From the NCBI GenBank assembly GCA_037043455.1, contig JAWPHD010011046.1:1-64000 (forward strand): a DNA stretch of 64,000 nt, in the 5' to 3' direction. Positions within the stretch are counted from its first letter, which is position 1. Every line of letters starts with the position of its first letter. The position numbers and the translations under genes are program-made. Below the pieces are notes generated by a model. The model did not search any database. It was not told where the DNA came from and saw only the letters and a program-made list of their open reading frames with translations. Of this stretch, positions 3,701 through 35,709 are shown one piece after another. The DNA is from Cyrtodaria siliqua (taxonomy: Eukaryota > Mollusca > Bivalvia > Adapedonta > Hiatellidae).

Positions 3701-3744
3701 ATTGTATGGACATATTGTAATCGTGAGGATATATTTTAAATCAT

Positions 3745-4745
3745 TTCTGCATTTACTCTCATTTTCATGGAGATGTCGAGCACTGTCAATTCTACATTAC
3801 TCCAATTTTCATGGGGATGTCGAGCGCTGTCATTTCTGCATTACTCTCATTTTATGGAGATGTCGAGCGCTGTCATTTTTACATTTCTCTCATTTTCTTG
3901 GAGATGTCGAGCGCTTAGTTCCTGCATTTAATTCCCATTTTTATGGAGATGTTGAGCACTGTCATTTCTGCATTACTCCCATTTTCATGAAGATGTCGAG
4001 CGCTGTTGAGCGATGTCATTTCTGCATTACTCTCATTTTTATTTAGATGTCGATTGCTGTCATTTCTGCTCTCCCATTTTCACAGAATGTCGAGCGCTGT
4101 CATTTTTGCATTACTCACATTTTCTTGGAGATGTCGAGCGTTGTCATTCCAGCATTACTCCCATTTTTGTGTAGATGTCGAGTGCTGTCATTCCTGCATT
4201 ACTCTCATTTTCATGTAGATGTCGAGCGTTGTCATTTCTGCATTACTCCCATTTTCATGTAGATGACGAGTGCTGTCATTTCTGCATTACTCTCTGGAGA
4301 TGTCGAGCGCTGTAAATTTTGCATTACTCACATTTTCTTGGAGATGTCGAGCGTTCTCATTCCTGCATTACTCCCATTTTTATGTAGATGTCGAGTGCTG
4401 TCATTCCTGCATTACTCCAGTGTTCATGGAGATGTCGAGCGCTGTCATTCCTGATTACTCTCATTTTAATGGAGATGTCGAGCGTTGTAATTTCTGCATT
4501 ACTCCCATTTTCATGGAGATGTCGAGCGCTTAATTCCTGCATTACTCCAATTTTTATGGAGATGTCGAGAGCTGTCATTCCTGCACTACTCTCATTTTCA
4601 TGAATATCGAGCTCTGTCATTTCTGCATTACTCTCATTTTTATGGAGATGTCGAGCGCTGTCATTTCTGCATTTACAAACTCCCATTTTCATAGCACTGT
4701 CATTTCTGCATTTACAAACTTCCATTTTCATGGAAATGTCGAACA
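3745..4745. repeat. 44-bp minisatellite
   Basis: About 22 copies of a 44-bp unit containing GAGATGTCGAGCGCTGTCAT and TTCTGCATTACTCCCATTTT. Units vary by substitutions and small indels. Overlapping ORFs in several frames on both strands are translations of the repeat and are not genes. Confidence 0.9.
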
Positions 4746-5548: not shown

Positions 5549-8095
5549 TTAATGGCAGTTCCATCATGTGACACCAATATTATGCTGGTATTGAGGACAA
5601 TTCCGTTATGTGACACCCATATTATGCTAGTATTGAGGACAGTTCCGTCATGCGACACCCATATTATGCTGGTATTGAGGATTGAGGACACTTCCGTCAT
5701 GTAACACCCATATTATGCTGGTATTGAGGACAGTTCCGTCATGTGACACCCATATTATGCTGGTATTGAGGACAGTTCCGTCATGTGACACCCATATTAT
5801 GCTGGTATTGAGAACAGTTCCGTTATGTGACACCCGTATTATGCTGGGATTGAGGGCACTTCCGTCATGTAACACCCATATTATGCCGGTATTGAGGACA
5901 GTTCCGTCATGTGACAGCCATATTATGCTGGTATTGAGGACAGTTCCGTCATGTGACACCCATATTATGCTGGTATTGAGGACAGTTCCGTCATGTGACA
6001 CCCGTATTCTGCTGGTATTGAGGACAGTTTCGTCATGTGACGCCCATATTATGCTGGCATTGAGGACAGTTCCATCATGTGATACCCATTTTATGCTGGT
6101 ATTGAGGATTGAGGACCGTTCCGTCATGTGACACCCATAGTATGCTCGTATTGAGGACAGATCCGTCATGTGACACCCGTATTATGCTGGTATTGAGGAC
6201 AGTTCGGTCATGTGACACCCATATTATGCTGGTATTGAGAACCGTTCCGTTATGTGACACACGTATTATGCTGGTATTGAGGGCAGTTCCGTCATGTGGC
6301 ACCCATATTATGCTGGTATTGAGAACAGTTCCGTTATGTGACACCCGTATTATGCTGGTATTGAGGACAGTTCCGTTATGTGACACATGTATTATGCCGG
6401 TATTGAGGACAGTTCCGTCACGTGAAAGCCATATTATGCTGGTATTGAGGACAGTTCCGTCATGTGACACCCATATTATGCTGGTATTGAGGACAGTTCC
6501 GTAATGTGACACCCATATTATGCTGGTATTGAGGACAGTTCCGTTATGTGACACCCATATTATGCTGGTATTGAGGATTGAGGACACTTCCGTCATGTAA
6601 CACCCATATTATGCTGGTATTGAGGACACTTCCGTCATGTAACACACATATTATGCTGGTATTGAGGACTGTTCCGTTATGTGACACCCGTATTATGCTG
6701 GTATTGAGGATTGAGGACACTTCCGTCATGTAACACCCATATTATGCTGGTATTGAGGACACTTCCGTCATGTAACACACATATTATGCTGGTATTGAGG
6801 ACAGTTCCGTCATGTGACACCCATATTATGCTGGTATTGAGGACAGTTCCGTCATGTGATACCCATATTATGCTGGTATTGAGGACAGTTCCGTCATGTG
6901 ACACCCATATTATGCCGGTATTGAGGACACTTCCGTCATGTGACACACATATTATGCCGGTATTGAGGACAGTTCCGTCACGTGAAAGCCATATTATGCT
7001 GGTATTGAGGACAGTTCCGTCATGTGATACCCATATTATGCTGGTATTGAGGACAGTTCCGTCATGTGACACCCATATTATGCTGGTATTGAGGATTGAG
7101 GACACTTCCGTCATGTAACACCCATATTATGCTGGTATTGAGGACAGTTCCGTCATGTGACACCCATATTATGCTGGTATTGAGGACCGTTCCGTCATGT
7201 GACACCCATATTATGCTGGTATTGAGGACACTTCCGTCATGTGACACCCGTTTTCTGCTGGTATTGAGGACAGTTTCGTCATGTTATGCTGGCATTGAGG
7301 ACAGTTCCGTCATGTGACAGCCATATTATGCTGGCATTGAGGACAGTTCCGTTGTGTGACACCCATATTATGCTGGTATTGAGGACAGTTCCGTCATGTG
7401 ACACCCGTATTCTGCTGGTATTGAGGACAGTTTCGTCATGTGACACCCATATTATGCTGGCATTGAGGACAGTTCCGTCATGTGACACCCATTTTATGCT
7501 GGTATTGAGGATTGAGGACCGTTCCGTCATGTGACACCCATAGTATGCTCGTATTGAGGACAGTTCCGTCATGTGACACCCGTATTATGCTGGTATTGAG
7601 GACAGTTCGGTCATGTGACACCCATATTATGCTGGTATTGAGAACCGTTCCGTTATGTGACACCCGTATTATGCTGGCATTGAGGGCAGTTCCGTCATGT
7701 GGCACCCATATTATGCTGGTATTGAGAACAGTTCCGTTATATGACACCCGTATTATGCTGGTATTGAGGACAGTTCCGTCATGTAACACACATATTATGC
7801 TGGTATTGAGGACTGTTCCGTTATGTGACATCCGTATTATGCTGGTATTGAGGACAGTTCCGTCATGTAACACACATATTATGCTGGTATTGAGGACAGT
7901 TCCGTTATGTGACATCCGTATTATGCTGGTATTGAGGACAGTTCCGTCATGTAACACACATATTATGCTGGTATTGAGGACAGTTCCGTTATGTGACATC
8001 CGTATTATGCTGGTATTGAGGACAGTTCCGTTATGTGACACCCGTATTATGCTGGTATTGAGGACAGTTCCGTTATGTGATACCTATCTTATCAC
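5549..8095. repeat. 42-bp satellite array, ~60 copies
   Basis: The unit is 42 bp and contains ATTGAGGACAGTTCCGTCAT and GTGACACCCATATTATGCTG. Since 42 is divisible by 3, frames on both strands stay open, giving apparent 14-residue periodic proteins on each strand. Occasional 7-bp insertions (duplicated TTGAGGA) break these frames. A variant block with TAGTATGCTCG occurs near 6138 and again near 7541, which shows a higher-order duplication at an offset of about 1.4 kb. No coding role is supported. Confidence 0.95.
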
Positions 8096-16616: not shown

Positions 16617-17891
16617 TTGCCAAACTGACCGCTGCAATGTTAACAGAATGGTATACCCAAAATTAAAGGCTGGCCAGATTTCTGAGCTAAAAATGGCACA
16701 AGTGGCAGCCTAACAGCATTCAAATTATGTGCCTCCGCGTAGATAAATAGTGCCTCCGTGTGCGCATGAGCTGAAGGTAATGAGACCAAGACGAGATCTG
16801 TATGTAATGGGAAAAAATACAATATTCCAAATGACAATATATGAATTGTGTCTACAGAATTTGCCTTGTTTAACCTAGTAAAATAGTTGACCATATTGTG
16901 GGAAAACGTTCTGGTTACGGCACTGTTTTATTTGATTTTACTTCAGATAGTACGTGAAAACAACATGAGTATTCCTTTATTATGTATAATTGTATATAGC
17001 AACAACTATTTCGAATGCTGTTTATTGATTCACGATGTCAGTGAATTATTATTAATGATAAGACGGAATGAAGAAACAAGTTTAGACACCACTGGATTGT
17101 TATTCTGTTGGAATATAGCATATATACAAATATTGTTACCGTTATATTTCCTGTATTTAAGATCGGATGCGATCAAAATAGAGTTCAGGGTCTAGTCGTG
17201 CAAGAACAGAAAGCTAGAGGGGCATTCCGGATTTAAACGCTATACCAATTGACAAGATGCAAACATTGCAAGAACAACTCGCGTCGGGCGCTATTTCCCC
17301 CCCATTTCAATTAATTTTTCCTGCATTTTGTTATTCATGGCATGTTCATCGTATTCAGATTTTGTTCGTTACACAATCCCCGCCGCATTCAGCACTTGAA
17401 TGCTTTGATTATTAGTGGGTAGCAGTACATATGTAATGTATAATCAGTTGCAAAATATAGTATACACTTTGATACTTTACACCCTATCCTCTTTACCAAG
17501 CGACAATCCCTTAATGATGCAACCTGTTGAAGAAAAAAAATGACACATCATATTGGCAATGGAATGATAAAAACTTTGGTACCAAACATGGCATATTTAT
17601 TTTGGAATTTGTCAATTTAATTCGGAAAAAACTTTATACAATTGAATCTAAACAAAACTCAGTGTACACTTTTTGTTGCAACTGAGTATATATTGTATTT
17701 TTAAAATATGTTATGTCTATTGCATTGATTTTTTGGTTCGATTCTGAGGGCAAGCTCCTTTTAGCTTAGTAATTGTAACATTGTTCTATGGAATTGTATA
17801 TTACAGGTAACTACGTGAATGTTAGATTATAATCGACCACACATCATATACAAGCGATGATTCACGGTGACTGTATTGTCGTCTATTTCAG
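16617..17891. other. Upstream flank/intron of the Kunitz gene
   Basis: Because the Kunitz exon begins with a phase-1 acceptor, this sequence is probably intron. I searched for a signal-peptide exon ending in phase 1 with a GT donor and found none convincing. An ATTACAG/GTAACT word at about 17798-17810 has no open frame beside it. Confidence 0.5.
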
Positions 17892-19669
17892 CTTGCCTAC
17901 AGCCACTAAAGGCGGGTCCTTGTAAAGCTTTACTCAACCGATATTACTTCAACATCCATACGTGTCACTGTGAACAGTTCAACTGGGGAGGTTGCGAACC
18001 CAATGGCAACAACTTTGTGACTTTGGAGGCATGCAGTAACCAATGTTTAAATCACATGGCAAATAACGACATTTGCGAACTTCCTATGCAACCGGGTACA
18101 TGCAAGGGCTCCTTTCCACGATGGCATTACAGTAGGAAAACATGTAAATGTGAGCCGTTTATTTATGGCGGGTGCGATGGAAATAACAATAATTTTATAA
18201 CTGAAGCGGAATGTAATATGACGTGTGGTTGTTACAACTGTCCAGTCTGTAATCTACCTGCCATGAAAGCTGATCCCACCGGACCGATTTGTCAAGCCAT
18301 CATTCCGCGGGTTTTCTTCAATATGTCAACCTGTCTGTGCGAATCCTTTGAGTATTCTGGTTGCGGCGGTAATGGTAACAACTTTTTGACTGAGGATGTT
18401 TGCCAGGACGTATGTGGCGACTTTGATTGCCCCCTGTGTTCCTTGCCTATCATGACTGGTGGACCAGTGCGTTTCTGTAGGGGGCTTTTTCCGATTTATG
18501 GGTACAACACGACGTCATGTCAATGTGAGAAATTCATATATGGCGGTTGTGGTGGTAATGCCAACCGATTTCCAACCCAAGCGGATTGTGAAAAGCGATG
18601 CTTGGATACAGAATGTAACCCAGCAATTGCCTGTGACATTCCAGTAAAAGTAGGACCGTGTCGTGCGATGTTGCCGCGTTATTTCTACAATAATAACACA
18701 TGCGAATGTGAACACTTTTTCTGGGGAGGATGCGATGCCAATGCTAATAATTTTGAAACCATGGAGGTTTGTCGGGAAAGAACTTGCGAGTGTTTCGAAA
18801 CTTGTGAAAATAAAAATGCTAAGTGCTATATGCCAGAAGATTCCGGTCCATGTAAGGCCCTTATACCTAGGTTCCACTATGATGCTCTTAATTGCAAATG
18901 TACCAAATTTAATTACGGTGGTTGTCTAGGCAATAGTAATAACTTTGAATCGAAAGGCAAGTGTAAACGGGCTTGCAAAGGAAGCACGTGTCCAGTGTGT
19001 AACCTGCCAGCGGACTCTGGGCCATGTAAATGCAAGTTTCCCATGTACTTCTACAACGTCCAGACGTGTCAATGTGAACAGTTTGACTATGGGGGTTGTG
19101 GCGGCAACAGGAACCGGTACAAGACAAGAAACGAGTGTGAATCAGTCTGTGGATCCGTGCAATGCCCAGTCTGTAACCTACCGCCGAAAAGAGGACCGTG
19201 CAAAGCAAGTCTAGACAGGTGGTACTTTGATGCGTCGCAGTGTCTATGCAAGTCATTTAAATATGGTGGTTGTAAAGGCAATCTCAACAGGTTTCTTACA
19301 CAGGCAGACTGCGACGGGTCATGCGGTACATTTCCGTACCCAGTGTGCTCACAACCAAAGCAAGTTGGCTATTGCAAAGCGGCACTACCGAGGTGGTATA
19401 ACAACGATCTGACAAACACATGTGAGGAATTTTTATGGAGTGGGTGTCAACTGAATGGGAACAATTTTAAAACACAAAGGGATTGCGCTAAAGTGTGTAG
19501 AGTATTGAATTGCACGTTACCACAAAAGATAGGTCCTTGCAAGGCAGCGTTCAAACGATTCTACTATGATGCCAAGGAAGGTAAATGCAAAACTTTCGGT
19601 TGGGGCGGATGCGAACCGAACGGAAATAACTTTAAGTCTCGAAGAGCCTGCAAGAAAGCTTGCCATTAA
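17892..19669 (+). CDS. Ten-domain Kunitz (BPTI-type) protease inhibitor, 3' terminal exon
   Basis: The exon encodes ten tandem Kunitz domains, small disulfide-bonded folds that block serine proteases; a secreted protein is expected. It opens after a pyrimidine-rich TATTTCAG acceptor (AG at 17890-17891) in phase 1, the usual phase for such modules, so the true start and any signal peptide lie upstream. An in-frame GTG at 17867 is intronic and was not used as start. Counting from Cys at 17894, domains begin near residues 1, 61, 119, 182, 247, 311, 369, 427, 485 and 540. The residue after Cys2 (P1) is Lys or Arg in nine domains, predicting trypsin-like targets; domain 3 has Gln. Domains 1-8 carry a C-x-C with an extra Cys two before the canonical third; domains 9-10 are canonical six-Cys. 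Domain 7 has a further Cys right after P1. The stop is TAA, with a polyA signal 37 bp later. A papilin-like or purely inhibitor protein are both possible. Confidence 0.93.
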
Positions 19670-23164: not shown

Positions 23165-23924
23165 CATTTTATTTTTATTTTATGAGTTATAATCAAATTG
23201 TACTGCAGTATGGAGATTTTTGTTTTAATTTGACAAAGTCATTGGCTTAGTATGATACAATTGCTGTTTAAGTTAAATTCCCTATAACTACTAGACTACT
23301 TAACCGATTTCAATAATCTACGACTCATTTTCTTAGTTAAGTTATTTCGAGTCCAACGGTTACTTTTATAGCAACTTTCTGAAAAAAATTACCAACTGAC
23401 ATATTTCACTGTAAATGACAACAATTCTGAAATACTTGAACAGTTTTAAAAACTATAGCTCATTTTCCTAGTTAGACCATTTACAATCGAATGATATACA
23501 CAAATAAAATAAAGTAAAAACATTCAGTGCTTTTGATATTGAAAAAAAGTAGTTCCGGCAGTGAACAAATAAAACTCTGTATTTCACACTTATGAAATAC
23601 CGCTTTTATTTCATGGCTAAAATCCACTATTTCACTGCTAATCATAAAATAAATCGAATTACCTTTTGCGGCGGAGAAAAGAGCTCACGTTCAGGGGTAT
23701 GTGCTTTTAGCTGAATAAAATTCGATAAATATTAGGATTTGCTTATGCTTATATATTTACTTACGAACCGTGTCCCTTTAAGCAGTTTATAAGAATACTC
23801 CCATAGCATCCTGAATTCTATAATTACAATTAGATAATAAAAACATAGGAAACATGTATATGAATTAAACTATGAATTAGTTGCAAAAACACCAGCACAA
23901 AGTGGAAAATCATTATTTGGTTTC

Positions 23925-24255
23925 TTCGTCTTGTAAATGGAATATAACTGGGTTGGTCGAGACAAGGTTTCTCGTCTTGTAAATGGAATATAACTGGGTG
24001 GTCGAGACAAGGTTTCTCGTCTTGTAAATGGAATATAACTGGGTGGGTCGAGACAAGGTGTCTCGTCTTGTAAATGGAATATAACTGGGTTGGTCGAGAC
24101 AAGGTTTTTCGTCTTGTAAATGGAATATAACTGGGTGGTCGAGACAAGGTTTCTCGTCTTGTAAATGGAATATAACTGGGTGGTCGAGACAAGGTTTCTC
24201 GTCTTGTAAATGGAATATAACTGGGTGGTCGAGACAAGGTTTCTCGTCTTGTCGC
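23925..24255. repeat. 45-bp intronic minisatellite, ~7 copies
   Basis: The unit contains TCTCGTCTTGTAAATGGAAT and ATAACTGGGTGGTCGAGACA, at 45-48 bp per copy. All three - strand frames are open through it, so the apparent 140-195 residue ORFs here are not genes. It lies in an Ig-gene intron. Confidence 0.92.
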
Positions 24256-24891
24256 GATCTTCCGTGAACGTAAAACAAGAGGCAAGCACTCCAGTGCAGT
24301 GTTTGTGTTTTGGCCAAATACATGTATTGTAACATTAGAACAAAGTTGAAGAAGCATTTTAAACACGGCTGAAAATATACCAAGAAAGACAAAACTATCG
24401 GACAGGGAAAGCAGCATTAAGGAAGACAGTCACCACAAAACACAAAAACAAACACGCAAACAGACAGACGAGAAGGCAAAAGTAATAAAAAATTCAAACG
24501 ACATCACAAACACAAAAGGGTTGACAATAGGGCTACCGCCTTGGAACTATCAGTGGCAACAAAGGCCACTGGGGGTTTAAACCGGTTCTAGGGTGCACCA
24601 AACCTCACACTTACCCTACTGTCATCCCATTAAAACAGGACAGTGTAAATAAAGAAATCCCCGCCATGATCTAATCTCTAACCAACAAGGCAGCATCAAT
24701 AGGCAATATAAGTAAAACACAAATATGCTCGTGTAAATAAAATACAAAAAACAATAGCCTAGAAAGCCACAATGAAGGTACTCAATGACTTGGCAGCCAC
24801 GTATGATTTGATGGATAATATGTAATGCGGTCCCTTATGTTCATTACGTGATGTAATAGTTTTGAAGCATTGTCTTTTATACAGCATTTAC

Positions 24892-25724
24892 CATGCAGAT
24901 GTATGTGCCTGCGGATCGAGGATCGTCAAAACTAAGGTATAGCCACTGTTCGTTCGTTACTCTTGATGCCACCAAACCCGGAAATGACGTTTCTGTGCCC
25001 ATAAGTATTTCTGTCGTATTGTCGGCAGATAACTTCAGAATGGACACTTGAGGTTTGGGATTTCCCATAGCACCGCAACGAATATGGTTAGTTAATATTC
25101 CAAAAACAGGCGTGTAGAGCACAGTCTGTCGTCTGAAGTTGTGAATGGCTACATTTCCTCTAGCTACTACTTCATTAGACTCATATGACGCGATTTCAGT
25201 TAAATAACGGTTATAAAGTCTTCCTAGCCGTAAAGGCTCGTATTCCTGGCTTGGCAACGTGAATGATAAAATACCACCAAATTTGGCATATGGGGCTTTG
25301 AGCGTTATTGCTAATTCAAAAGTCTCGCTTGTGAGCCGATGTAGATTCACATCGTAAGCATCGTCATATTTGTATCTCGTTTCTACCACCGGTGGATCGA
25401 CAGTTGTATCAAGGTACACAAAGGACGCATCAACAGTGGCGAGTATATGTTCATATTGACTTGGGCTACCTTTGACAATCGCGGTGATTTCAAGGTCAAG
25501 ACTATTGGACGCAGTAAATGTTTTGTTCATTTCAATTACGGTAATAGGATTAGGAGGAATGAAATCGAATCCACTTTCCACTGCTGTACGTTTAAGATGA
25601 AACCATACTGCCTGATATTCGCTCCACATTATGAATTCTATCTCATACATTTCTCCGACGTTTTCCAACGTAATGGTCGATACGCGTGCGTAAGGGCCAG
25701 AACCATATACATGGGAACCACCTC
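24892..25724 (-). CDS. Ig-domain gene, large central exon
   Basis: An 833-bp exon. The acceptor is TTTTTTATTGACAG (AG at 25726-25725), phase 1, matching the phase-1 donor of the exon at 30745-30478. About 180 residues of beta-rich sequence of unknown family come first. The C-terminal ~90 residues form an Ig-like domain: HIRCGAMGNPKPQVSIL holds the first Cys, and DDPRSAGTYIC is the typical D-x-x-x-A-G-x-Y-x-C of strand F. The best donor is ATG then GTAAAT (GT at 24891-24890), phase 0. A second donor, GTATAA at 24882-24881, is also phase 0, and a stop follows at once. The N-terminal part resembles no family I can name. It is probably a secreted or surface recognition/adhesion protein. Confidence 0.8.
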
Positions 25725-27144
25725 CTGTCAATAAAAAAGAGTATATAAAGAGAGGTATTTGATATTAGAGCTACAGACTCTGACTAACACATCAAGACGG
25801 ATATGACAGAGTGGACACGAAATAGTCCTTATTATAAGCATATAAGGAGTATATGACATTTATGACCTTGACCTTCAAGATACAGACCCGGGTTTGGGTT
25901 CTACAAGTCATATTGTTGAGATGAGTGTTTGTGCCATGCAGTTTATTTCAAAATCCCTCCATGCATGTGAAAGTTATGGAGTGGACACGGAATTTGAAAA
26001 ATGTAACGGGCGGACAGACGAACGAATGAACGGACTGAAGGACGGACTGATTTATTTCTCGATGTGATCAAATACTTATATTTCACTCATGACTCGCATT
26101 CGTGAAAATTTAAACGTTTGCTCTCTTTAATATCGATGAAATAAAATATGTTATTCACTTCAATATCTAAACTAATATCCTCTATATATTTAAACGAAAG
26201 TTCATTGTATGAACAAAATATAAAATCAACGAAACTACTCGTTAAACGGGACTGGAACGTACTACTATAGGAAACGAATAATAATTGATACAAAATCTCG
26301 GCGCACTCAATGTACATGAAATGTTCACTTTGGATATATTTGAAGATATTGTATTTGTTGGCATGTGTTATATGGGGACTGCAGGCGATCTGGAAGAGCG
26401 CTTGATGCCAATACAAAATAATGTGCTTCAGTGTCCTTTGAAATGTGCACATGCGTTAGATAAGCCGCGTACTACGTTTAGTTGAATTATTATTTATGAA
26501 AATGTATGAACAGTAAAATACGACCTCTTAAAATATAAATCATAAATATCAATTCATATTACGCGTATATATATATATGGGTTCCTATTGTTAGCAGTTG
26601 TACACATACGTATATATAAGTGTGGTTCAATCGTAAAAAAGTCTTAACACATCAACTGGATTAATCTTTATGATTTATGCAACAAAAACTAGCAGAGTTT
26701 TCCGGATCAAACTATTTCATTAACAAAATATTAAACTGATTCTTTTATGGGTCCGTGCATATGCACACTGAATATGCAACTGTTCAAACACAGTATGACT
26801 GTTTTACTCGTAGATGGAGTGACACCCCTATAGATAGCCTCCACTCCCTTTAAAACGGACCTCCATCTTTTATTATTCCTAAAAGATTAATAATCCATAT
26901 TTAACACCACAATTTTCATGAAAGTAGCATAAATAAAACACGATTAAGCAAACACGTCACGTACCTTCAAATTTAAAATCTCGAAACTGCCGTAGTTCAC
27001 AATCTACCCTATCAAACGTGATACAATTACATACCTTTCTTTGAGAGAACCAGTTGGTTTAATCATAAACAAAGAATATGTTCTGTTCTGTTCCTAACCT
27101 GTATATTTACCTATTGACTTATACATTACTAAGAAAAAGTCAGA
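25725..27144. other. Ig gene intron, 3' part
   Basis: AT-rich intron. A GACGGACG-like word near 26010-26050 and TTTCAC/TGAAATAAAA words near 26080-26160 are remnants of dispersed repeats. A short (TA)n run is at about 26563-26578. Confidence 0.5.
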
Positions 27145-29896
27145 ATGGGCATCGAACTCACCTATTATCTCCATTACGTCGTTTTAATGTCTGGACGACG
27201 AACTTTCGTGTTCTTCACTATGTTCTTTTTGCGTCTGGACAACGAACTCACCTATTCTCTCCATTACGTCGTTTCTGTATCTGGACCACGAACTCACCTG
27301 ATCTCTCCCTTACGTCGTTTCTGTGTCTGGACAACGAACTCACCTATTCTCTCCATTACGTCGTTTCTGTGTCTGGACAACGAACTCACCTGATCTCTCC
27401 ATGACGTCGATTTTGCGTCTGGACAATGAACTCACCTATTCTCTCCATTACGTCGTTTCTGTATCTGGACAACGAACTCACCTGATCTCTCCATTACGTC
27501 GTTTTTGTGTCAGGACAACGAACTCACATATTCTCTCCATTACGTCGTTTCTGTGTCTGGACAACGAACTCACCTGATATATTAAATTACGTCGTTTTTG
27601 TGTCTGGACAACGAACTCACCTATTCTCTCCATAGCGTCGTTTCTGTGTCTGGACAACGAACTCACCTATTCTCGCCATTACGTCGTTTATGTGTCTGGA
27701 CGACGAACTCACCTATTCTCTCCATTACGTCGTTTTTGTGTCTGGACAACGAACTCACCTATTCTATACATTACGTCGTTTCTGTGTCTGGACAACGAAC
27801 TCACCTATTCTCTCCATTACGTCGTTTCTGTGTCTGGACAACGAACTCACCTATTCTCTCCATTACGTCGTTTCTGTGTCTGGACAACGAACTCACCTAT
27901 TCTCTCCATTACGTCGTTTTTGTGTCTGGACAACGAACTCACCTGATCTCTCCATTATGTCGTTTCTGTGTCTGGACAACAAACTCACCTGATCTCTCCA
28001 TTATGTCGTTTCTGTGTCTGGACAACGAACTCACCTGATCTCTCCATTATGTCGTTTCTTTGTCTGGACAACGAACTCACCTGATCTCTCCATTACGTCG
28101 TTTTTGTGTCTGGACAACGAACTCACATATTCTCTCCATTACCTCGTTTCTGTGTCTGGACAACGAACTCACCTATTCTCTCCATTACGTCGTTTCTGTG
28201 TCTGGACAACGAACTCACCTGATCTCTCCATTACGTCGTTTTTGTGTCTGGACAACGAACTCACCTATTCTCTCCATTACGTCGTTTCTGTGTCTGGACA
28301 ACGAACTCACCTGATCCCTCCATTACGTCGTTTGTGTGTCTGGACAACGAACTCACCTATTCTCTCCATTACGTCGTTTCTGTGTCTGGACAACGAACTC
28401 ACCTATTCTCTCCATTACGTAGTTTTAGTGTCTGGACGACAAACTTTCATGTTCTTCACTATGTCGTTTTTGCATCTGGACAACGAACTCACATAATCTC
28501 TCTATTACGTCGTTTCTGTGTCTAGACAACGAACTCACATAATCTCTCCATTACGTCGTTGTTGTGTCTGGACAACGGACTCTCTCTGTTCTCTCCATTA
28601 CGTCGTTTTAGTGTCTAGACAACGAACATACCCATTCTTCTCTCCACTATGTCGTTTTTGTGTCTGGATAGCGAACTCATCTGTTCTCTCCAATATGTCA
28701 TTTTTGTGTCTGGACAACGAACTCACCTGTTCTTCTCTCCACTATGTCGTTGTTGTGTCTGGACAACGGACTCTCTCTGTTCTCTCCACTATGTCGTTTT
28801 AGTGTCTGGACAACGAACATACCCGTTCTTCTCTCCACTATGTCGTTTTAGTGTCTGGACAACGAACTCACATGTTCTTCTCTCCACTATGTCGTTTTAG
28901 TGTTTGGACAACGAACTCACCCGTTCTTCTCTCCACTATGTCGCTTTTGTGTCTGGACAAGAACTCATCTGTTCTCTTCACTATGTCATTTTTGTGTCTG
29001 AACAATGAACTCACATGTTCTTCTCTCCACTATATCGTGTTTGTGTCGTTTTAGTGTCTGGAAAATGAACTCACCTGTTATTCTTTCCACTATGTCATTT
29101 TAGTGTTTGGACAACGAACTCACATGTTCTTCTCTCCACTATATCGTGTTTGTGTTTGACAACGAACTCACCTGTTCTTCTCTCCACTATGCCGTTTTAG
29201 TGTCTGGAAAATGAACTCACCAGTTCTTCTTTCCACTATGTCGTTTTAGTGTCTGGACAACGAACTCACCTGTTCTTCTCTCCACTATGTCGTTTTTTTG
29301 TCTGAACAACGGACTTATCTGTTTTCTCCGCTATGTCGTTTTTGTGTCTGGACAACGAATTACCTGTTCTTCTCTCCACTATGTCGTTTTTGTGTCTGGA
29401 CAACGAACTCAACCTATTCTCGCCATTACGTCGTGTTTGTGTCTGTTCAACGAACTAATATGTTCTCTCCACTATTTCGTTTTAGTGGACAACGAACTCA
29501 CCTGTTCTTCTCTCCACAATGTCGTTTTTGTGTCTGGACAACGGACTTATCTGTTTTCTCCGCTATGTCGTTTTTGTGTCTGGACAACGAATTACCTGTT
29601 CTTCTCTCCACTATGTCGTTTTTGTGTCTGGACAACGAACTCAACCTATTCTCGCCATTACGTCGTGTCTGTGTCTGTACAACGAACTAATATGTTCTCT
29701 CCACTATTTCGTTTTAGTGGACAACGAACTCACCTGTTCTTCTCTCCACAATGTCGTTTTTTTGTCTGGACAACTCACTCACATGTTCTTCTCTCCACTA
29801 TGTCATTTTAGTGTCTCGACAACGAACTCACCTGTTCTTCTCCCCACTATGCAGTTTTTGTGTCTGGACAGCTAACTCATCTGTTCTCTCCACCAT
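27145..29896 (-). repeat. 46-bp minisatellite built from the Ig gene's 5' splice junction
   Basis: About 60 units, mostly 46 bp (48-49 bp in the distal half). On the gene's strand a unit reads ACGACGTAATGGAGAGATCA, then G/GTGAGTTCGTTGTCCAGACA. The exon ending at 30478 finishes ACGACGTATCGGAGAGATTA, then G/GTGAGTTCGTTGTCCAG, so each unit copies ~22 nt of exon end plus the donor and intron start. Roughly 45 copies over both array segments keep GTGAGT, most preceded by CAG or TAG. ORFs on both strands are repeat translations. Confidence 0.93.
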
Positions 29897-30172
29897 GTAA
29901 TAGATAGAGTCTGGTCTCAGCGAGTTGGCTTATTTAAACACCGAGATGGGCGTAGCCCATCGAGGTGTTTAAATAACCAACGAGCTGAGACAGACTCTAT
30001 CTTTTTTGTAGCATGGTGTACTGAGTAACACTGTGACGTCATAGTGACAATACTCTAAATTCCAATATCCGGTAGTTGTAGTACGGTAAAGCCACGCCCT
30101 TTAGTTAACCTAAATTAAACGATTTAATGCTCTGCATTCATCAAAGGAAATGTCACCGACCATGCTACAAGT
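29897..30172. mobile_element. Foldback element inserted in the 46-bp array
   Basis: It interrupts the array in mid-unit. Bases 29904-30000 form a 97-bp hairpin (ATAGAGTCTGGTCTCAGCGA pairs with GAGCTGAGACAGACTCTAT). Its apex has CACCGAGATGGGCGTAGCCC, then ATCGAGGTG. The remaining part is bounded by TGTAGCATGGT (30007-30017) and its complement ACCATGCTACA (30159-30169). Confidence 0.8.
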
Positions 30173-30477
30173 AGTTTTAGTGTCTGGTCAACGAACTCAC
30201 CTGTTCTACTCTCCACTATGTCATTTGTGTGTCTAGACAACGGACTCATTTGTTTTCTCCACTATGTCGTTTTTGTGTCTGGACTACGAACTTACATGTT
30301 CTCTCTACTATGTCTTATTGTGTCTGGACAACGAACTCATCTATTCTCTCCATTACATCGTTTTCGCGTCTGGACAACAAACTCACATAATCTCTCCATT
30401 ACGTCGTTTTTGTGTCTGGACAACGGACTCACCTGATCTCTCCATTACATCGTTTTGTCACTGGACAACGAACTCAC
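30173..30477 (-). repeat. 46-bp minisatellite, exon-proximal segment
   Basis: About seven units that continue the array up to the real splice donor of the Ig-gene exon. The last unit merges into the exon end at 30478. Confidence 0.92.
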
Positions 30478-30745
30478 CTAATCTCTCCGATACGTCGTTT
30501 GGGCGTCTTATGTTCCACGCAATGGACACTGATGGATCGTTCGTGCCTGTAAAAAAAACTGACACAGTAGCCGAATCATCAATCAGCCCGGTGGACGAAA
30601 TACGCGCAACTGACAAACGATTCGCTGTATCGTCGTTGGGAATCAGTTGTCGCTTCTGTTGTCCACTTAGGTCGAGTGTTCTTCTCAGGTTTGACAACAA
30701 TTCAGCTTGTAAAGTTTGGTGATCAGCCGATGACTGAACCTTTTG
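30478..30745 (-). CDS. Ig-domain gene, first visible exon
   Basis: A 268-bp exon. The acceptor is TTATTAATTTCAG (AG at 30747-30746), phase 0. The donor is TTAG then GTGAGT (GT at 30477-30476), phase 1, which joins in frame to the exon at 25724 as RLG then GGSHVY. It encodes a hydrophilic, possibly helical stretch (QTLQAELLSNLRRTLDLSG), then a beta-rich part with SATVSVFFTGTNDPSVSIAW that continues into the next exon. No family is recognised. There is no initiator Met or signal peptide, so the gene has at least one more 5' exon, which I could not find in the window. Frame, both splice sites and phase agreement support the exon, not homology. Confidence 0.7.
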
Positions 30746-31535: not shown

Positions 31536-32609
31536 GTATCGATTTTTTTAACTTTGAGACGTATCGTTTAATATCGATGCTTAATCGGAGCCGTAAACAA
31601 CGAAGTGCGATTCCTCCCTAAACGACTGATAAACTCATCGAGTAACGGTTTAATTGAATGCAGTTTATTATTCACGAACAAATCCCATGCGGCTTGCCAA
31701 GATTTACGAATATATTTGTTAATATACCATTTAAAATCAGCGCAAAATAATTTAGCATTAGATATATATAAACCTAATGCTGCCTTAGCAGCAATGTCAT
31801 CTCTATCATTACCATGTATTCCTATAAATAGATAATTGTATTTTTCTAAAATAAAACTTGGAGCATAGCTGGGTTGTCACGTTTTGTATTACCAAGTGCC
31901 TGAAGAGATGAAAGGGACTCAGAAAATATTACGAAATGGTCATCATCAGATTCATGAATATAGTTTTAGGCAAATTTCTTAGGATATAGACGTTGTCAGG
32001 TAGGCGGCTCTTCTCTTGATACTCTGCTTCGATTTAATTTCATTAAATTTGCTTTGAAAAATAGGATCTGTACCGGACTTATTATTACAAAGGTAAAAAA
32101 TAATTGTTTGTGTTTCTAAAGTCCACGGTAGAATGGGTGGTACTTTGTACTTGGCAGTCACATATATAGGTCAATTTCGAGCTCTCTTAACTCCGACTTA
32201 TTACGAAGACCAAATAGTCGAATGGCCTTCGGATTTGATCAAAAAGAGTTTCATAACTAGAATTAAGTACAGCATCAAAAATTGAGTTTGATGGGTTAAT
32301 TTGTAATTAAATGGGGCATTGAAGGGCATTGAAGGGTTAATTTGTCTCGTCTATGATACAGAGATGGTTCGTTAGCTTCAGATTCAACGTATATACGTTG
32401 GCTGGTGATGTACGCAAGGTACCCAAGTCGAGTCGTAATCCTTGATTATGTATAGGATCGAGCATCTGCAAGTAAGACTATTGAGCCGTAGTCCAGATTG
32501 GATCTGGTAATAGATCTATACAGTCGCAAGATCACTTTTCGATCAGCTTCTCAATTAGTGTTTGCAACAACTTAAGTAAATTTAAGACTTGGTCTTCAGA
32601 CACCTGCAA
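31536..32609. other. No gene seen
   Basis: Non-coding sequence. Short ORFs lack domains and splice context. Confidence 0.45.
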
Positions 32610-34835
32610 CATCTACATGGGTTTTATACTGATAATCGTCGCTCATCACGGATACCAACATTGAATTGACACCTGCGACATCTACTTGGGTCGTATACTG
32701 ATAATCGTCGCTCATCACAGATACCAACGTCGGACTGACACCTGCGACATCTACATGGGTCGTATACTGATAATCGTCGCTCATCACAGATACCAACGTC
32801 GGACTGACACCTGCGACATCTACATGGGTCGTATGCTGATAATCGTCGCTCATCACAGATACCAACGTCGGACTGACACCTGCGACATCTACATGGGTCG
32901 TATGCTGATAATCGTCGCTCATCACAGATACCAACGTCGGACTGACACCTGCGACATCTACATGGGTCGTATACTGATAATCGTCGCTCATCACAGATAC
33001 CAACGTCGGACTGACACCTGCGACATCTACATGGGTCGTATACTGATAATCGTCGCTCATCACAGATACCAACGTCGGACTGACACCTGCGACATCTACA
33101 TGGGTCGTATACTGATAATCGTCGCTCATCACAGATACCAACGTCGGACTGACACCTGCGACATCTACATGGGTCGTATACTGATAATCGTCGCTCATCA
33201 CAGATACCAACGTCGGACTGACACCTGCGACATCTACATGGGTCGTATACTGATAATCGTCGCTCATCACAGATACCAACGTCGGACTGACACCTGCGAC
33301 ATCTACATGGGTCGTATACTGATAATCGTCGCTCATCACAGATACCAACGTCGGACTGACACCTGCGACATCTACATGGGTCGTATACTGATAATCGTCG
33401 CTCACCACGGATACCAACGTCGGATTGACACCTGCGACATCTACATAGGTCGTATACTGGTAATCGTCGCTCATCACGGATACCAACGTCGGATTGACAC
33501 CTGCGAAATCTACATGGGTCGAATAATGATAATCGTCGCTCATCATGGATACCAACATTGAATTGACACCTGCGACATCTACATGGGTCGTATACTGATA
33601 ATCGTCGCTCACCACGGATACCAACGTCGGATTGACACCTGCGACATCTACATGGGTCGTATACTGGTAATCGTCGCTCATCACGGATACCAACGTCGGA
33701 TTGACACCTGTGAAATCTACATGGGTCGAATAATGATAATCGTCGCTCATCATGGATACCAACATTGAATTGACACCTGCGACATCTACATGGGTCGTAT
33801 ACTGATAATCGTCGCTCATCATGGATACCAACGTCGGATTGACACCTGCGAAATCTACATGGGTCGTATACTGATAATCGTCGCTCATCACGGATACCAA
33901 CGTTGAATTGACACCTGCGACATCTACATGGGTCGTATACAGATAATCGTCGCTCATCACGGATACCAACGTCGGATTGACACCTGCGACATCTACATGG
34001 GTCGTATACTGATAATCGTCGCTCATCATGGATACCAATGTTGAATTGAACCTGCGACATCTACATGGGTCGTATACTGATAATCGTCGCTCATCACGTA
34101 TACCAACGTCGGATTGACACCTGCGACATCTACATGGTTCGTATACTGATACTCGTCGCTCATCACGGATACCAACGTTGAATTGACACCTGCGACATCT
34201 ACTTGGGTCGTATACTGATAATCGTCGCTCATCACAGATACCAACGTCGGATTGACACCTGCGACATCTACATGGGTCGTATGCTGATAATCGTCGCTCA
34301 TCACAGATACCAACGTCGGATTGACACCTGCGACATCTACATGGGTCGTATGCTGATAATCGTCGCTCATCACGGATACCAACGTCGGATTGACACCTGC
34401 GACATCTACATGGGTCGTATGCTGATAATCGTCGCTCATTACGGATACCAACGTCGGATTGACACCTGCGATATCTACATGGGTCGTATGCTGATAATCG
34501 TCGCGCATCATGGATACCAACGTTGAATTGACACCTGTGACATCTACATGGGTCGTATGCGGATAATCGTCGCTCATCACGGATACCAACGTTGAATTGA
34601 CACTTGCGACATCTACATGGGTCGTATACTGATAATCGTCGCTCATCATGGATACCAACGTTGAATTGACACCTGCGACATCTACATGGGTCGTATGCGG
34701 ATAATCGTCGCTCATCACGGATACCAACGTTGAATTGACACCTGCGACATCTATATGGGTCGTATACTGATAATCGTCGCTCATGATTGATACTAACGTT
34801 GAATTGACACCTGCGAAATCTACATAGGTCGTATA
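32610..34835. repeat. 69-bp satellite array, ~32 copies
   Basis: The unit is 69 bp and contains ACCTGCGACATCTACATGGG, TCGTATACTGATAATCGTCG and CTCATCACAGATACCAACGT. Since 69 is a multiple of 3, two - strand frames (about 480 residues) and one + strand frame (291 residues) are open at once, with a 23-residue period. About ten copies at 32690-33390 are nearly identical. A three-unit block near 33402 is repeated near 33609 (207-bp higher-order unit). Units differ by amino-acid-changing substitutions in each frame, so the open frames are best explained by unit length and not by protein selection. Confidence 0.93.
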
Positions 34836-35709
34836 CGATACTCTGTGAGTTTTAATGTACCACTATCAACATACGACGGCGTAGACAGTGGAGGCCCATT
34901 CCATCAGAAGCCCGGCCAATATATTTCTGATCATCATGGATAACGTTGGGACTTGGAGCGTATACAGACTGGACGACGCTTGTTAGAACATTCAATAGCC
35001 CATTGTGTGCGGGTTCCAAAACAGGCCACGTCAACTCATGAGCATCCTCATGGAAATCACAATCAACAGGATTGACCTCCTTCCAACTATTGAGGCCCTC
35101 ACAGGGGGTCCATGTTCCCTTTTCCCCAGAAAAATATGACCCAATGTTCCCTTGTTCCCCAAAACCCCTGGGAGGCCCTCACTATGCTGAAACGTTTTCG
35201 TGCCGGCAATCGGATTGACCTACTTCAACATGTTGGGATGTCATCCGGTTGGCCGAGCTCTTCAATCATCAATTCACAATTTTAATCTTCTCTGGACAAT
35301 TCCAATCATCCACTATCAACGCTGGATTTCTTCATCATCTACTGCTGTATCTTGTTATCACCATTGGACGGAATATGTCAGGCTTCTATCGGAGTCGGCG
35401 CCGAATCAACTCTAAACTTATATTGAAAAGCTCGCCAAAAGTCCTTCGGGCGAGGGTAAACAAAAACGTATCGTCGTCGTCGCTTTAAAACATCAACTCT
35501 CGTCAAGGCAAGCTTAACTGCCACTTGCTAATACCATTATTTATAGTTTGTGCTCATTGGTAATTTGATATCAATGCGTATAAAATCATATTTGTAACAA
35601 AGAATAATTATCGGTACAAATAAATATATCGTACCTATTAAAATAATGAATACAATCAATGTATGTGATACGCGCTGTGATATATTGATGTCGGTATGCA
35701 TGCGCGACA
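34836..35709. other. No gene seen
   Basis: Non-coding. A - strand open stretch at 35034-34852 contains CCAACGTTATCCATGATGAT, which resembles part of the 69-bp unit and may be flanking ancestral sequence. Confidence 0.4.

Follow-up and report, generated by a model that had tools for sequence, protein, structure and literature searches.

How does a 5' splice site come to be repeated about 65 times next to the exon that it serves, and does the gene make use of the additional copies? This question is raised by a minisatellite of the bivalve Cyrtodaria siliqua which lies between two exons of a putative gene on the minus strand of contig JAWPHD010011046.1 (assembly GCA_037043455.1). The first 64,000 nucleotides of this contig were analyzed and are called the window. 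A sequence-only reading of the window had claimed that tandem amplification of a splice donor took place next to the exon to which it belongs. This claim holds: the array grew out of the exon-intron junction, in the direction from exon to array. In all likelihood it is a neutral minisatellite born at the junction, of the kind named mirage in amphioxus, and the first donor is the one in use.

Anatomy of the array and direction of change

The exon pair and the array comprise the following features.

30478-30745, minus strand: predicted exon 1, 268 nt, ending in phase 1; assigned from its open frame and acceptor, the exon ends and phase of paralogs, and the ratio of nonsynonymous to synonymous substitution rates (dN/dS)
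24877-25725, minus strand: predicted exon 2, with acceptor TTGACAG/GAGG, an open frame and an immunoglobulin (Ig)-like end; the 3' boundary is provisional, and the joining phase is that of paralogs
30478-30508, minus strand: 31-nt exon tail, with which repeat unit 1 starts; up to 25/31 identical to units, the next best site in the window reaching 21/31
30463-30477, minus strand: true donor with the first 15 intron nucleotides, GTGAGTTCGTTGTCC, the second part of unit 1; donor position kept in paralogs
27146-30477, minus strand: minisatellite composed of 65 units inside the intron, each about 46 nt long except for a central 49-nt subfamily; found by anchor scan, Tandem Repeats Finder (TRF) and alignment
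29899-30173 (approximate bounds), no strand assigned: inserted element of about 270 nt with inverted arms, which splits the array

Scanning for the motif GTGAGTTCGTTGTCC gave 67 anchors, namely the exon junction (position +1 at 30477), a false anchor at 30156 inside the inserted element, and 65 intronic units. Thus, the proposed amplification of about 65-fold is correct, and the number of units is 65 instead of the earlier figure of about 67. The anchors are spaced mainly by 46 nt and by 49 nt in the middle subfamily, and TRF reported a period of 46 at 27146-29892 and 30174-30500. The array was said to fill 3.3 kb with 46-bp units; it is present with mostly this spacing, although the insertion interrupts it.

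Each unit consists of 31 nt resembling the exon tail followed by 15 nt resembling the intron start, so that about 31 exon nucleotides were copied and not the 22 originally estimated. Alignment of the units to the exon-intron junction revealed that the junction itself is unit 1. Units match its 15 intron nucleotides at 15/15 and its 31 exon nucleotides at no more than 25/31; in the window outside the array, ungapped 31-mers resemble the exon tail at 21/31 at best. Consequently, the tandem units span a real exon-intron boundary, which is conserved in three paralogs.

These paralogs lie at three loci of the same genome (C5983, C9755 and C12407). Their exon 1 is about 72% identical to that of the window and has the acceptor and the donor at the same positions. 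They contain the exon tail and the donor (ACAG/GTCAGTACATTGT); the 46-bp array is absent. Exon 1 ends in phase 1 in 5/5 copies compared. The next exon was located in four copies, always joining in this phase, and was not found in the C9755 stretch. Because the paralogs hold the exon tail, the donor and the phase without the array, the array must be derived from the junction. The intron does not occupy a new position, since the end and the phase of exon 1 are equal in the array-free paralogs. The shared acceptor and donor positions, the shared phase and dN/dS values of 0.38-0.46 between the window and the paralogs indicate that exon 1 most likely codes for protein and that its boundary at 30478 is conserved. 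A Pfam search with four stretches of the window yielded matches below the cut-off only, among them a weak Ig_3 match on exon 2 (E 0.028).

The array seems to retain an older form of the exon end. Among 182 array sequences, taken from three copies of the locus and including two junctions and one false anchor, 104 score closer to the exon tail of the paralogs than the present exon tail does, a count of related units that is no test of independent events. This closeness is found chiefly in the 49-nt subfamily ending GTGGAGAGAAGAACAG; when the paralog tail was shuffled, 6/2000 sequences matched the 49-nt consensus equally well.

The paralog introns contain a different, 21-bp minisatellite (L011 5022-5194, L013 5192-5364 and L012 5196-5253). 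At L011 it lies some 60-75 nt past the same donor, so that the initial part of this intron holds an array there as well.

We propose the following course of events. Tandem duplication would first have affected 46 bp that include the 3' end of exon 1 together with its donor, and the copies would then have multiplied by slippage, unequal exchange or both. The exon-proximal donor would have stayed intact and the additional copies would have turned into intron, which is why growth of the array could be tolerated. The spare donors inside the intron would then drift, and the array as such would probably have no function. Most likely, it is still the donor at 30478 that the spliceosome selects. This donor is favoured because splicing from it keeps the frame into exon 2, whereas an extended transcript meets a stop codon.

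Donor signals, other copies of the locus and alternative explanations

Two further features bear on the use of the donors in the array.

30427-30432, minus strand: nearest spare donor, CAG/GTGAGT, 45 nt past the true donor; U1 pairing -12.2 kcal/mol versus -10.6 kcal/mol
30458-30460, minus strand: in-frame TGA stop for a transcript running past the true donor; translation SERLGEFVVQ, then stop

The sequence GTGAGT is present at the anchor in 45/65 units, in agreement with the earlier estimate of about 45. GT is found at this place in 50 units and AG/GTGAGT in 34 (19 with CAG and 15 with TAG). In total there are 46 GTGAGT sites, as one unit carries two overlapping sites. Calculated with the U1 5' end sequence, U1 pairing at least as strong as that of the true donor (-10.6 kcal/mol) was obtained for 35/314 GT sites in the array and for 10/7272 elsewhere in the window. 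This corresponds to about 10.5 such sites per kb in the array and 0.08 per kb per strand elsewhere.

Protection of long introns by U1 and nuclear retention of RNA are familiar ideas, and such an accumulation of strong sites would fit an array that serves as a platform for the U1 small nuclear ribonucleoprotein in the pre-mRNA, where it would prevent premature polyadenylation, titrate U1 or retain the RNA in the nucleus. In the 65 units, G is found at position -1 in 50/65, at +1 in 54/65 and at +3 in 54/65. The AG/GTGAGT columns underwent on average 4.5 parsimony changes versus 5.55 for the remaining columns, and random sets of eight columns were as low in 17.5% of cases (p=0.18). Thus, the donor columns are kept no better than other columns. 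The paralogs, moreover, manage without the array. We therefore consider a U1 platform improbable, although it fares better than the explanations that follow.

Isoform diversification, as suggested by the sequence-only reading, would require that varied array donors are spliced to exon 2 and give rise to a family of proteins. Many of these donors are strong, and the spacing of 42-49 nt in most units shifts the frame. Each extra donor was thought to add 46 nt; the first one adds 45 nt. A transcript extended past the true donor, however, reads GEFVVQ and stops inside the first intronic unit, within 20 nt. Since this TGA lies in the exon frame ahead of the array donors, all of them would yield the same truncated protein. 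Together with the drift of the donor columns this makes an isoform generator very unlikely, and the claim is not supported.

It could also be asked whether the array came first, so that a pre-existing minisatellite gave the exon its 3' end and its donor and the exon end is an exonised repeat. The complete identity of the intron part of the junction with many units, compared with at best 25/31 for the exon part, would fit such an origin. Against it stand the homologous exon tail, donor and phase in the array-free paralogs, and the unit was found at no other locus. In the 2.88-Gb genome assembly, 80/80 matches to a query of the exon plus about 1.7 units fell on the window contig (C11046), on C12468 and C2164, or on the three paralog exons, a search that scored six candidates, skipped very common words and is not proof of absence at unrelated loci. 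A dispersed family of the 46-bp unit that predates the gene, the finding named beforehand as fatal to amplification of the gene's own donor, was accordingly not encountered. We regard an array-first origin as most improbable.

Growth from the junction is also compatible with the other copies of the locus. C12468 is collinear with the window, its flanks being about 95% alike, and C2164 is about 97% identical to the window up to the contig end inside its array. The array of C12468 lacks the inserted element and has a first spacing of 33 nt. It comprises 71 intronic units (72 anchors including the junction) versus 65 in C11046, the contigs being alleles or duplicates. The similarity ratio for exact units is 0.16 between the window and C12468 and 0.46 between the window and C2164. 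Judged from these comparisons, change seems to be much faster in the array than in its flanks. The end of C2164 inside its array indicates that the array troubles assembly, yet an assembly artefact is hardly conceivable, as three contigs carry the array with different unit orders and two of them have both flanks matching.

Apparent recurrence of donor arrays in the genome

The genome was searched for CAGGTGAGT repeated three times at a spacing of 20-50 nt. This yielded 845 matches, compared with 447 for the reversed motif. For CAGGTAAGT repeated three times, 1,369 matches versus 422 for the reverse were obtained, which are raw counts without normalisation to the single motif. The first 100 of the 845 matches correspond to 11 distinct arrays with different units. 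Judged by eye, 10/11 start at an exon-like end, with units that copy the exon end and the donor. At 8/11 an acceptor is followed by a frame that stays open as far as the first donor, two (C106 and C252) resemble first coding exons with a start codon, and the remaining one (C397) consists of simple sequence and lacks an exon.

Protein domains back the exon-like ends at two arrays. For the C150 exon, Pfam gives the prenyltransferase alpha repeat (PPTA) with E 1.7e-12. Joining the exons across the first C238 array gives one Beta_helix match with E 1.4e-14, compared with 0.025 and 1.9e-8 for the parts. As this match is continuous, splicing from the first donor would restore the protein. The joined exons, which we take to be FBXO11-like, were named by no search, and a sequence search of the PDB with them gave no match. 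Among the arrays whose frame was read, most run into a stop codon no more than 66 nt past the first donor; of the two frames possible for C368, one stays open.

At C284 (L049 1331-1619) the 48-nt units are open throughout in one exon frame, so that donors of this array could add 16-residue repeats to the protein. A further 48-bp array with the donor-like ACTG/GTGAGT in its unit is located at C9:55500-56800 (L075).

It is conceivable, though on present evidence we think it rather doubtful, that exon-intron junctions of this bivalve are preferred birthplaces or refuges of minisatellites, where duplications of the 5' splice site are tolerated as the first donor works, introns are repeatedly lengthened and rows of U1 sites are left behind. 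As a single motif, too, CAGGTGAGT outnumbers its reverse (13,948 versus 9,266), and the array matches per site amount to 6.1% and 4.8%, respectively, matches inside one array not being independent. For comparison, 20 CAGGTGAGT loci were picked by hand from the first 34 listed rows, one per cluster. Two of them lie in arrays. Minisatellites make up 10.5% of the fetched bases; 2,282/2,729 of these come from the two arrays, and outside the share is 447/26,020. An excess is neither shown nor excluded because the sample of 20 loci is small.

With a cut-off chosen after the values had been seen and an upstream look of at most 600 nt, acceptor scores of at least 9 were obtained for 9/11 arrays versus 3/20 motif loci (Fisher p 0.0005), one of the three being itself in an array. 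Rank tests gave p 0.0004 for the acceptor score and p 0.007 for the length of the open frame. The automatic acceptor differs from the choice by eye for C246, C252 and C150. In this small sample, the comparison suggests that an exon-like end is more frequent at motif-bearing arrays than at motif loci overall.

The late choice of this cut-off weighs against the explanation proposed here, and so do the following points. Whether the 11 arrays adjoin an exon-like end was at first a judgement by eye. The exons at the C238 and C346 arrays measure 48 and 56 nt, lengths at which an open frame says little. Among eight exon translations beside arrays only that of C150 passed the Pfam cut-off alone; C238, C368 and C284 remained below it, and C201, C246, C252 and C106 gave nothing. 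At the locus itself, leakage to array donors has to be expected because the closest spare donor pairs more strongly with U1 than the true one does. The dN/dS between the window and C12468 is 0.65 for exon 1 and 1.19 for exon 2, on few changes, and C11046, C12468 and C2164 may be alleles or may be duplicates. Outside the genome, a search with exons 1 and 2 found no protein homolog at E<=0.001 among 1883 candidates, proteins of 0.55-1.75 times the query length being eligible. Finally, a repeated domain across the exon 1/exon 2 junction was not supported, as 1817/2000 shuffles scored as high.

The window is rich in minisatellites. A 69-bp minisatellite of about 32 units at 32599-34840 coincides with a 751-aa open frame of 23-residue repeats on the minus strand, which may be coding or due to chance since 69 is a multiple of 3. 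Others with units of 42-45 bp are located at 5556-8092, 3741-4673 and 23919-24252. An open frame of 602 aa at 17861-19669 consists of Kunitz domains and is papilin-like; its top identities are with papilin-like proteins of Mercenaria (54%) and Mya (53%), judged by E-value, a Trichuris protein (40% identity) ranks first.

Comparison with known systems

What is said here of other systems follows the cited passages of each source. In human duplicated genes, variable tandem repeats with units of 30 bp on average, present four times, were described at exon-intron boundaries and associated with novel introns (PMC2812944). They resemble the array of the window as minisatellites that alter gene structure at such boundaries. 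Here, by contrast, the intron position is unchanged relative to the paralogs and the intron gains 65 units. The Rogers model explains intron gain via tandem duplication of AG/GT proto-splice sites (cited in PMC3087553). A segment bearing AG/GT was likewise duplicated in tandem in C. siliqua, but no new intron was formed, as the exon ends and the phase of the paralogs match. Minisatellites are known from the first intron of earthworm metallothionein (PMC12783039) and near sites of alternative splicing in C. elegans (PMC4039745); units that copy a splice site are not mentioned in the passages cited. A literature search on titles and the openings of abstracts, which left subscription papers mostly outside and is not proof of absence, found no mirage in a mollusc.

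The closest counterparts are the mirages of amphioxus, minisatellites spanning exon-intron junctions in Adh3 and globin genes, with units of 10-72 bp and 150-160 bp, respectively (PMC3087553). PGBD5, Adh and troponin C have also been named as mirage genes (PMC3902484). AG/GT is present in many but not all mirage units, regular splicing is seemingly undisturbed, and somatic instability was reported for the Adh mirage (PMC3087553). The array of the window shares the units composed of exon end and splice signal and the presence of AG/GT in many but not all of them; its copies, be they alleles or duplicates, differ in length as well. Consequently, it is a large member of the mirage kind. The earlier suggestion of an undescribed mode of intron growth stands as far as the growth of the intron is concerned; the mode itself is not new, because junction-spanning minisatellites have been described as mirages in amphioxus, and repeats at exon boundaries are known from human genes.

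In amphioxus mirages occur at both ends of introns, whereas the arrays read here are confined to 5' splice sites by the choice of a donor as search pattern. If the recurrence over one genome is true, it represents a concrete and measurable route of intron lengthening, and the arrays would be natural test material for a spliceosome that chooses one donor among dozens of near-identical ones. Unlike the amphioxus mirages, the present array belongs to a bivalve, reaches 65-71 units and has array-free paralogs that give the direction of change. Thus, a structure described in amphioxus is carried into the molluscs, and what is new is a bivalve case that can be polarised, together with its apparent recurrence in the genome.
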